Made by a program: the position numbers and the translations under genes. From contig JAAYCO010000073.1 in the NCBI GenBank assembly GCA_012729725.1, positions 1 through 51,569 on the forward strand: a stretch of DNA of 51,569 nt, in the 5' to 3' direction. Source of the DNA: Planctomycetota bacterium (GTDB taxonomy: Bacteria; Planctomycetota; Phycisphaerae; SM23-33). This document shows positions 18,641-20,546 of this stretch, one piece after another (the first letter of the stretch is position 1; each line of letters starts with the position of its first letter). The notes below the pieces were generated by a model, which saw only the letters and a list, made by a program, of their open reading frames with translations, was not told the origin of the DNA and searched no databases.

Positions 18641-18706
18641 CGTCGCGTAGCGACACCTCGCCGTTCTGGTTCGCGCGTAACCATCTCACGCTCATCACGT
18701 TCGCAT
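18641..18706. repeat. Dispersed structured repeat, copy 1
   Basis: About 66 bp matches 20598-20663 in the same orientation at roughly 80% identity. Both copies keep two small dyads: TGGTT...AACCA with a 7-nt loop, and TCGC...GCGA with a 3-nt loop. The repeat overlaps the last codons and the stop of the downstream GNAT gene. The conserved dyads suggest a REP-like or RNA-level element rather than coding sequence. Confidence 0.6.
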
Positions 18707-19291
18707 TCCGCAGGCCTGCGCTGCAAGCCATTCGCATCGCAGCAAGCCATAATGTTCGAGGTCTTCGAGTTTGCCCCATCGGCTCAAATGCTGGCGAAGG
18801 CAGCCTTCGTGCTTCATGCCAATCTTCTGCATCACGCGGCCCGAGGCGGGATTGCGGGACATGTGCTGGCCGAAGATGCGGTTGAGCGCAAGCTCCGCAA
18901 ACCCGAAGCGGACAAGCTCGCGCGCGGCCTCGGTGCAGTAGCCTTTTCCCCAGTAGTCCTTGCCGATCCAGTAACCCAGTTCGCCTCGGCTGTGACTGGT
19001 GCGGAAGCCCATCAGGCTCACGCAGCCGATCAGAGTGCCGTCCTGCAGACAGACCGCCAACGGCAGATTGTTGCCCTTCGCAAAGCCCTCAGCGTGTCCG
19101 GCGATCCACTGCTCGGCGACACCATCGGGATACGGATGCGGCATTGTGGCAGTGGTGTTAGCTATCTCCCATGCCCCCGCCAGCGTTTGAACCCGCGGCC
19201 CGTCGGCAAGCTCAAACGGTCGAAGAATCAGCCGCAGAGTGTTGAGTGTGGGAATACTCCTCATGGTGATGCTGTTTTCGTTAACGCTCAT
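18695..19291 (-). CDS. GNAT acetyltransferase (RimJ/RimL type)
   Basis: The 198-residue N-acetyltransferase has the RimL-type layout: TLRLILRPFELADGPRV near the start, GELGYWIGKDYWGKGYCTEA forming the acetyl-CoA loop, then NPASGRVMQKIGMKHEG. The family acetylates protein N-termini, antibiotics or small amines, and the substrate is unknown here. The chosen ATG overlaps the 3' end of the preceding GNAT gene by 11 nt, so translation is probably coupled. The gene's last codons lie inside dispersed repeat copy 1, so the repeat may have supplied the present stop codon. Confidence 0.85.
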   Translation of the reverse strand: MSVNENSITMRSIPTLNTLRLILRPFELADGPRVQTLAGAWEIANTTATMPHPYPDGVAEQWIAGHAEGFAKGNNLPLAVCLQDGTLIGCVSLMGFRTSHSRGELGYWIGKDYWGKGYCTEAARELVRFGFAELALNRIFGQHMSRNPASGRVMQKIGMKHEGCLRQHLSRWGKLEDLEHYGLLRCEWLAAQACGMRT

Positions 19292-20171
19292 TATGCTCGC
19301 TCTTTCCGTCAAACACATAATGGCCCGAATCCGCCACCGGCACATATCCTATCTTCTGGTAGATGCTGTTTGACGTCGGGTTGGCCAGGTCGGTGTACAG
19401 GCAGCAGAACTCCCGGCCGGCGTCGAGTTGACGCTGGCTGAGTGCAGCCACGCAGGCTGAAGCGTAGCCATGACCGCGGTGCTCCGGCGGCGTGTAGACC
19501 GAGCCAATGCTGATTCCGCGCCTGGTAGGCCGACGGGCTGCCGCCATCGACACTGCACGCGCGCCGTCCTCCCATATGGCAAAGCTGCCATAGGCAACGG
19601 CGTGTTGGGCGGCCTTCATCGCTGCCTGGGCATCCAGCCGTTCGAGGGTGACTTGGGAAAACGCCTCTATCCACTCGGCCAGCAGTTCCAGATCGTCCGC
19701 GCGGGAAACACGAAGTTGGCCCGGCACGCCACGCGGGAACGTCACCTCGCGAAGCTCGTATATTCGCTGGGCCATCTTCAATGCGAAGCCCTTGCCGGTT
19801 CGCTCTGCCCATATCTTCGCGAACGCCAAGGCCGTTGCACTCGGGCCGTGGCATTCCGGCAAGGTGTGGCCGCCGGCCTGTAAGGCCTCGGCAATGACCT
19901 CCAATGCGGCCGTGGCTTGATCCTCCCGATCCGTGCCAATTGCCGGCGCGTACAGCACAACGCCGTGCGGCGGCGTCATGATGGTCGCAGCCTCAAGTCC
20001 GGCCGGGCCAGATACAGTCATCATCACGACCGGCGGATCAGGCGGCTTGTCCGTCGTCGCCAGACGCCCCGCCAGCCCCAGGATCAAGTTGTTGACGGGC
20101 TCTTCTCGCTCCAGCCATTCGCCGGCGGCATCAAGAAAGGCCGCCGCGGTTGCGTAAGTTGTCGCATTCAT
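19281..20171 (-). CDS. GNAT-family acetyltransferase, two-part
   Basis: The 296-residue protein has a C-terminal GNAT fold. The acetyl-CoA-binding loop is RGHGYA at 232-237, followed by TDLANPTSNSIYQKIGYVPV. The N-terminal half (about 1-145) looks like a degenerate second GNAT-like domain. The substrate is unknown. The ATG has AAGGA ten nt upstream. The frame is open further upstream to 20378, but that part looks like the remnant of another gene. It is the first intact gene behind the attenuator-like leader and is coupled to the next GNAT gene. Confidence 0.82.
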   Translation of the reverse strand: MNATTYATAAAFLDAAGEWLEREEPVNNLILGLAGRLATTDKPPDPPVVMMTVSGPAGLEAATIMTPPHGVVLYAPAIGTDREDQATAALEVIAEALQAGGHTLPECHGPSATALAFAKIWAERTGKGFALKMAQRIYELREVTFPRGVPGQLRVSRADDLELLAEWIEAFSQVTLERLDAQAAMKAAQHAVAYGSFAIWEDGARAVSMAAARRPTRRGISIGSVYTPPEHRGHGYASACVAALSQRQLDAGREFCCLYTDLANPTSNSIYQKIGYVPVADSGHYVFDGKSEHNER

Positions 20172-20315
20172 GTCAGTTTCCTTTTCCAGCATGGCGATAT
20201 ATACTGAGATCTTTGAAACGAAGAACCGGGCCACTCGCCAGCCCGTGCCAGTGACGATCTGACGCATTTCGTCCTTCGATACCAGTGCTCTCGTGCCATC
20301 TCTGATTTCATGCCC
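20172..20315 (-). pseudogene. 3' remnant of a SAM-dependent methyltransferase gene
   Basis: Directly upstream of the GNAT start, in the same frame, about 48 codons read like the C-terminal end of a class I methyltransferase: LVSKDEMRQIVTGTGWRV, then a hydrophobic strand ending VYIAMLEKE. The usual stop codon of such a gene is missing, and the frame runs into the GNAT gene. The N-terminal SAM-binding part is absent, replaced upstream by the terminator hairpin. It may be a deletion remnant of a gene once controlled by the leader, or it may be translated as an extension of the GNAT protein. Homology is judged by eye only. Confidence 0.45.
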
Positions 20316-20340: not shown

Positions 20341-20375
20341 ATAAACAAAAAGCCCGTTCCACTCGGAACGGGCTT
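20341..20375 (-). terminator. Intrinsic terminator in the GNAT leader
   Basis: A perfect 11-bp stem (20365-20375 with 20350-20360) closes the loop GAGT. On the minus strand it is followed directly by TTTTGTTTAT, making a textbook intrinsic terminator. It lies about 135-170 nt after the upstream promoter and 170 nt before the GNAT start. Its 5' strand can instead pair with an upstream segment (20413-20421), so it looks like the switchable part of an attenuator. Confidence 0.85.
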
Positions 20376-20404
20376 CATAGGCTTTCCTGGGATGTGCTGC
20401 TTGC

Positions 20405-20509
20405 CTATCGCGGCCCGTTCCTAGCGCAGGCTAGAATCGTGCGCATAGCGCATACGCGCTGCTGGCACGAGCTGGACCTGCGATAGAATTTGGCAGCGAT
20501 CTGCTTCAT
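20405..20509 (-). CDS. Possible leaderless 34-residue leader peptide
   Basis: The predicted transcription start (20509-20510) coincides with an ATG that opens a 34-codon frame ending at TAG (20407-20405). The frame spans P1, P2 and P3 and stops just after the antiterminator strand. The peptide begins MKQIAAKFYRR and is rich in Arg and Cys. With no room for a ribosome site it would need leaderless initiation. A ribosome at its stop would cover the antiterminator, while stalling earlier would free it. The frame could equally be a chance product of a structured RNA. Confidence 0.3.
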   Translation of the reverse strand: MKQIAAKFYRRSSSCQQRVCAMRTILACARNGPR

Positions 20510-20516
20510 GACAAAA

Positions 20517-20546
20517 ATGATATGCCCCATTTTCAAATCTTGTCAA
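20517..20546 (-). promoter_or_regulatory. Strong sigma70-type promoter of the GNAT leader
   Basis: On the minus strand a consensus TTGACA (20546-20541) is followed after 18 nt by TATCAT (20522-20517). The surroundings are AT-rich, unlike most of the window. Start is predicted at 20510-20509. A GCCGGC-AAGAA-GCCGGC inverted repeat (20570-20586) lies just upstream of the -35 box and could be an operator or an upstream terminator remnant. Confidence 0.7.

Follow-up and report, generated by a model that had tools for sequence, protein, structure and literature searches.

The region at positions 20341–20546 on the minus strand of the window (the whole stretch analyzed, 51,569 nt from a Planctomycetota bacterium) very probably encodes a ribosome-mediated transcription attenuator and not a ligand riboswitch. 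This reading, which was derived from sequence comparison and in silico folding, rests on several observations: the supposed three-way junction proved to be a coding frame, the complementarity of its closing stem, P1, equals that of shuffled controls, and a strand in the final codons of the frame that can pair with the terminator is conserved among relatives. The sensor would most likely be a ribosome on a leader ORF of 34 codons. The preliminary description had correctly recognized a folded leader, but had overlooked the ORF inside which the "junction" lies. The features of the region are as follows.

20541..20546 (-): -35 box, TTGACA; the sequence TTGAC[ACG] is present in 12 of 13 members
20517..20522 (-): -10 box, TATCAT, 7 nt upstream of the ATG of the leader ORF
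20405..20509 (-): leader ORF, 34 codons plus TAG, apparently leaderless, encoding MKQIAAKFYRRSSSCQQRVCAMRTILACARNGPR
20413..20421 (-): antiterminator strand A, GGAACGGGC, within the final codons of the leader ORF
20403..20408 (-): ATAGGC, which can lengthen the antiterminator by pairing with GCCTAT
20377..20382 (-): GCCTAT, the partner of ATAGGC
20365..20373 (-): GCCCGTTCC, the 5′ arm of the terminator (T5) and alternative partner of strand A
about 20341..20376 (-): intrinsic terminator, hairpin plus T-tract
20168..20311 (-): ORF of 47 codons with the Shine-Dalgarno sequence GGAGAAAGG; its stop codon overlaps the start of the GNAT gene (ATGA)
20175..20288 (-): 38 aa remaining from the C-terminus of a SAM methyltransferase
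19281..20171 (-): gene for a GNAT acetyltransferase, located behind the attenuator
18695..19231 (-): second GNAT gene (Acetyltransf_3), start codon provisional

Results

Promoter, terminator, and antiterminator of the window

The promoter consists of TTGACA, an 18-nt spacer, and TATCAT, and it matches the consensus at 11 of 12 positions. It is located at 20546–20517, exactly where the preliminary description had placed it, and it ranks first among the 5 promoter-like sites in 5 kb (chance expectation 1.6). The intrinsic terminator with its U-tract was likewise found as described. The same is true for the antiterminator of 9 bp, as strand A is the exact reverse complement of T5, and for its possible extension by ATAGGC/GCCTAT. 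Reading of the other members by eye showed that this extension is not a general rule. Because the -10 box is so close to the ATG, the transcript should start at the ATG or within a few nucleotides of it, as judged from the spacing.

Identification of 13 members

A BLAST search against 100 relatives revealed one clear homologue (genome G004, Phycisphaerae bacterium PFL33), and a pattern scan revealed a second one (G027). A covariance model built on the window and these two sequences (R1) found G021, G030, G034 (Planctomycetales CSMAG_1454), G070, G060, and G015. With a second model (R2), two loci in G037, a second locus in G015, and a locus in G485, which belongs to another class of the phylum, were added, and a third model (R3), run on 22 genomes, led to no further accepted member. 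The search for homologous leaders that the preliminary description had proposed thus yielded 13 members from 11 genomes. Their distribution is patchy. Members are present in 8 of the 38 genomes of the window's order, and two further orders that were checked each contain only the already known member. In an exact-pattern scan of 84,980 species, a terminator was present in only two of the matches listed, both known members, and a gapped pattern applied to 392 genomes of the phylum gave no new member (locus L239 was inspected). Most of the model matches that scored below about 37 bits were ordinary terminators. Two loci with low scores, L285 and L290, were retained only on the basis of a consistent promoter, ORF, and pairing.

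The layout is common to all 13 members: a promoter, an ATG located 7–12 nt past the -10 box, an ORF, a strand close to GGARYGGGC in its final codons, and a terminator with a pairing 5′ arm. The ORF has 34–37 codons in 10 members and 33, 34, and 45 codons in the other three, and in every member it stops just short of the terminator. In a test of ten members, its frame was free of stop codons, compared to 16 and 4 stops in the two alternative frames. The probability that all ten frames are open by chance is 2.8e-5 (product over shuffles; the constant location of the ATG and the stop codon does not enter into this value). In summary, start, stop, and open frame of a short ORF at the transcript start are conserved, and its translation is predicted.

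The sequence of the peptide is not conserved. Between members, the nucleotide identity of the ORF bodies is 31% (a close pair was left out) and that of the spacer downstream of the stop codon is 26%, both near random, whereas strand A, with its ten nucleotides, reaches an identity of 86%. Conservation thus extends to the frame, to both of its ends, and to strand A, but not to the peptide. In two members from the same genus, 11 of 15 codon changes are replacements. The models used to collect the members include strand A and hence favored its retention to some extent; neither the compensatory changes nor the constant distance to the stop codon described below result from this bias.

Predicted pairing between strand A and the terminator

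In each of the 13 members, strand A pairs with T5. The covariation test suggested earlier for the antiterminator revealed two pairs that have changed on both sides, from A-U to G-C in four sequences and from C-G to U-A in three, and the terminator carries matching changes. In a model-fitted alignment of the 13 sequences, none of 500 shuffles and no slid register attained the covariation score of the antiterminator. This alignment places G485 about 4 nt off, and direct reading of its sequence gives full pairing. Covariation is taken here as supporting evidence and not as proof, because related sequences can exceed shuffles without a structure. The complementarity to the upstream region amounts to -16 to -22 kcal/mol for the members, compared to -6 to -12 kcal/mol for ordinary terminators from the same searches (12 controls, one of which yielded no duplex). 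Terminator and antiterminator are thus predicted to be mutually exclusive, as had been claimed, and this arrangement is kept in the 13 members, with compensatory changes.

Taken in isolation, the antiterminator hairpin equals or exceeds the terminator in stability in all 13 members. Folding of ten members with a ribosome at codon 20 and an RNA that ends at the 5′ arm gave probabilities of 0.72–1.0 for the pairing of strand A with T5. When the whole untranslated 5′ part was included, the pairing was weak in two members (0.00 and 0.26), which makes predictions for an RNA without any ribosome uncertain. The terminator prevails at equilibrium in the finished full-length RNA of 8 of 10 members, and therefore, antitermination must be kinetic and be chosen during transcription.

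The geometry fits a ribosome at the stop codon. The distance from the start of strand A to the end of the stop codon is 17 nt in nine of the ten members tested and 23 nt in one, and T5 starts 21–33 nt past the stop codon (about 30 nt in the window). The footprint of a terminating ribosome is about 26 nt (PMC13236596), so that a ribosome at the stop codon would span strand A and leave T5 outside. A codon-shuffle test gave no support for an anti-antiterminator (segments 1:2, as in trp), an element that is absent from some known attenuators.

Genes downstream of the putative attenuators

Both GNAT genes that had been claimed downstream of the element were found. Nevertheless, the link to GNATs seems to be secondary, as the gene next to the element was probably one for a SAM methyltransferase in the ancestor, and a remnant of it is still present. 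The remnant matches the C-terminus of the methyltransferase behind the G070 member with 68% identity (E 1.6e-8). The ORF of 47 codons was apparently left by an internal deletion, which would have reduced the methyltransferase gene to a start and, out of frame, its last approximately 38 codons. Taken together, the remnant and the ORF indicate that the methyltransferase gene was probably deleted internally and that the GNAT gene is now the first intact gene. The ancestral operon probably consisted of a SAM methyltransferase and a GNAT.

The members in G004, G021, G030, G034, G070, and G060 are followed by genes for GNATs and for class I SAM methyltransferases, the latter belonging to at least four sequence types. 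NCBIfam assigned no specific function to these methyltransferases or GNATs, and all matches were far below the cut-off. No intact methyltransferase or GNAT gene lies directly behind the members in G027 and on contig C162 of G037, and the member on contig C142 of G015 precedes aspS.

Several loci deserve a separate description. Downstream of the terminator of L053 (G027), an apparently decayed DUF3795-like ORF (a Cys-rich fragment) was recognized by eye only. L292 (G485:C511), from the other class, has the same attenuator layout and precedes a gene for a PLP-dependent aminotransferase-like protein. At L251 (G019:C91), upstream of a methyltransferase gene, strand A is apparently fused to the 3′ arm of the terminator (GAACGGAATGGGCCTTTTTC), as if a deletion between repeats had taken out the 5′ arm and hence the terminator. 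L260 (G087), upstream of a related methyltransferase gene, has a different leader with an ORF of 58 codons; this ORF ends with GCTCTGA, the terminator behind it contains the complementary sequence TCAGAGC, and this leader may be a parallel attenuator.

Proposed mechanism and signal

The following mechanism is proposed for the window. RNA polymerase would start at or next to the ATG, and a ribosome would load on the essentially leaderless 5′ end, as the spacing implies. Sequence and comparison show that strand A (GG AAC GGG C, in the final codons of the ORF) is able to pair with T5. Ribosomes that reach the stop codon would mask strand A, the terminator would form, and transcription would end (OFF). 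A ribosome held at an earlier position would leave strand A free to pair first with T5, and the polymerase would read into the operon (ON), a step that the folding results support.

The signal was sought in the codon usage of the ORFs. Three members, the two G037 loci and the G015 locus on contig C17, form a sister group with ORFs that end in R-S-G-L-P plus two further residues. These ORFs contain 12 His codons, compared to 3.4 expected (z 4.8). One member (L285, G037:C361) precedes hisD, the gene for histidinol dehydrogenase, and the hisD match is below the full-length cut-off because only the first 330 residues are covered. Another member (L290, G015:C17) precedes a gene for ribose-phosphate pyrophosphokinase (PRPP synthetase). 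Both are likely histidine attenuators in Planctomycetota, as judged from codons and gene context, and the resemblance of the sister group to a histidine attenuator supports the view that the layout is a ribosome sensor. The similar GC-rich terminators of the two groups could have arisen independently.

A classical attenuator that responds to a single amino acid would accordingly be an option for the window's group as well, and Met is weakly enriched in it (p 0.02, uncorrected), while Cys is frequent, though not significantly so. However, the codon enrichment test found no dominant regulatory residue in the window's group, so that regulatory codons are present in the sister group (His) only; the enrichment of Lys is due in part to codon 2, and the targets are not biosynthetic genes. 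This option is therefore regarded as unlikely for the window's group.

Regulatory codons for an amino acid are not needed in attenuators that sense translation inhibitors. Since no clear regulatory codon was found in the window's group, generally slowed translation, e.g., by ribosome-targeting compounds, is the likeliest signal, although this assignment is speculative. A general translation sensor would be in line with the uORFs that precede resistance genes or GNAT/methyltransferase genes (toiL, vmlR, and tlrB). It is tentatively suggested, at a confidence short of even, that attenuators with leaderless ORFs form a class in Planctomycetota that lacks a fixed regulatory codon, senses ribosome distress as such, and turns on methyltransferase/GNAT operons whose products act on translation inhibitors.

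Alternatively, the locus might be a plain gene for a small protein, or a small RNA, with a terminator of its own, no control of downstream genes, and a complementarity that is a side effect of repeated sequence. In favor of this explanation, a methyltransferase or GNAT gene is no longer found behind several of the members, and the equilibrium folds of the full-length RNA favor the terminator. Yet peptide and leader body are unconserved, while strand A and its partner are conserved with compensatory changes, the association with methyltransferase/GNAT operons is repeated, and the sister members are His-rich, one of them preceding hisD. We thus regard this explanation as improbable.

Slightly less probable still is nascent-chain arrest, in which the C-terminal R-N-G-P-R of the leader peptide would hold the ribosome, like R-A-G-P of SecM, and this stall would set expression. 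Eight of nine ORFs in the window's group, including that of the window, end with RNGPR or a close form directly before the stop codon, and R-x-G-P resembles known arrest motifs (PMC10987492, PMC10951299). However, the motif is replaced by W-N-G-P, R-N-G-S, R-S-G-R, R-S-G-L, or G-D-G-L (the last in G485), and pairing is still kept. The changes therefore track the pairing and not the peptide, and the conservation is more simply explained by RNA pairing. In addition, the codons are held to AGG/TGG AAY/AGC GGG, and a ribosome stalled at R-N-G-P-R would cover strand A. The members were found to have neither the conserved motif of a SecM/RAPP-type arrest peptide nor protein-localization genes (sec, yidC) downstream. 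An R/K-x-R/K macrolide motif is frequent directly before N-G-P-R among the members; it was rejected as the sensor, because a ribosome stalled on it would occupy strand A and because it is absent from the window.

The least probable alternative is a ligand-binding riboswitch, with the junction closed by P1 as an aptamer that governs the choice between antiterminator and terminator: the 180-nt minus-strand RNA has a more stable fold than any of its shuffles (z = -4.7) and its MFE structure contains P1 and the three-way junction, as the preliminary description had it, but the presumed aptamer is coding and unconserved, and the complementarity between ORF and strand A that P1 requires equals that of codon-shuffled controls (Stouffer z 0.11), which deprives the junction of support as a functional element. 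No aptamer conserved in sequence and structure was found among the members. Rfam searches at gathering and relaxed thresholds gave only chance matches in the leader, in agreement with the earlier statement that no known riboswitch class fits. This case illustrates how a short coding frame that has been overlooked can give rise to a predicted junction structure.

Comparison with known systems

Mycobacterial leaderless poly-cysteine ORFs, reportedly described by Canestrari et al. in 2020, are said to mediate amino-acid-responsive attenuation and to act on operon translation. The leaderless regulatory ORF is common to them and the attenuator proposed here, which has no poly-Cys run. A further parallel is the topAI-yjhQ-yjhP operon of Escherichia coli, in which yjhQ encodes a GNAT. 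A PDB search showed yjhP to be a methyltransferase relative (1nkv). The uORF of this operon, toiL, reports translation stress anywhere along its length; it unmasks a ribosome binding site and acts on Rho termination (PMC12121999), in contrast to the pair of intrinsic terminator and antiterminator found here.

In Bacillus subtilis, vmlR (PMC9226507) and yxjB/tlrB (PMC6851288) are resistance genes controlled by a leader ORF and transcription attenuation, and tlrB encodes a methyltransferase (PMC6851288), like the targets of the window's group. The leader ORFs of both have Shine-Dalgarno sequences, whereas the leaders described here are apparently leaderless. Furthermore, vmlR uses an anti-antiterminator (PMC9226507), which is not supported here, and the tlrB leader stalls ribosomes at R-Y-R and has no known antiterminator (PMC6851288).

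No experimentally described case of ribosome-coupled transcription attenuation in Planctomycetota was found in the literature searched, and the attenuators proposed here would extend this mode of regulation to that phylum. They also suggest leaderless leader ORFs as a sensing device in Planctomycetota, and they provide slowed translation as a candidate inducer for uncharacterized methyltransferase/GNAT operons.

A close resemblance in architecture exists to ilvB1 of Mycobacterium tuberculosis and the classical trp and his attenuators (PMC13236596), which likewise combine a uORF with an intrinsic terminator. In these systems, a ribosome at the stop codon masks the antiterminator strand and a stalled ribosome frees it, as proposed here. 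The window's group differs from them in the lack of shared regulatory codons, in the location of the ORF at the 5′ end, and in its occurrence in Planctomycetota with methyltransferase/GNAT targets. Taken together, the comparison provides good support for the view that the element represents a variant of ribosome-mediated transcription attenuation that is new with respect to the known cases.
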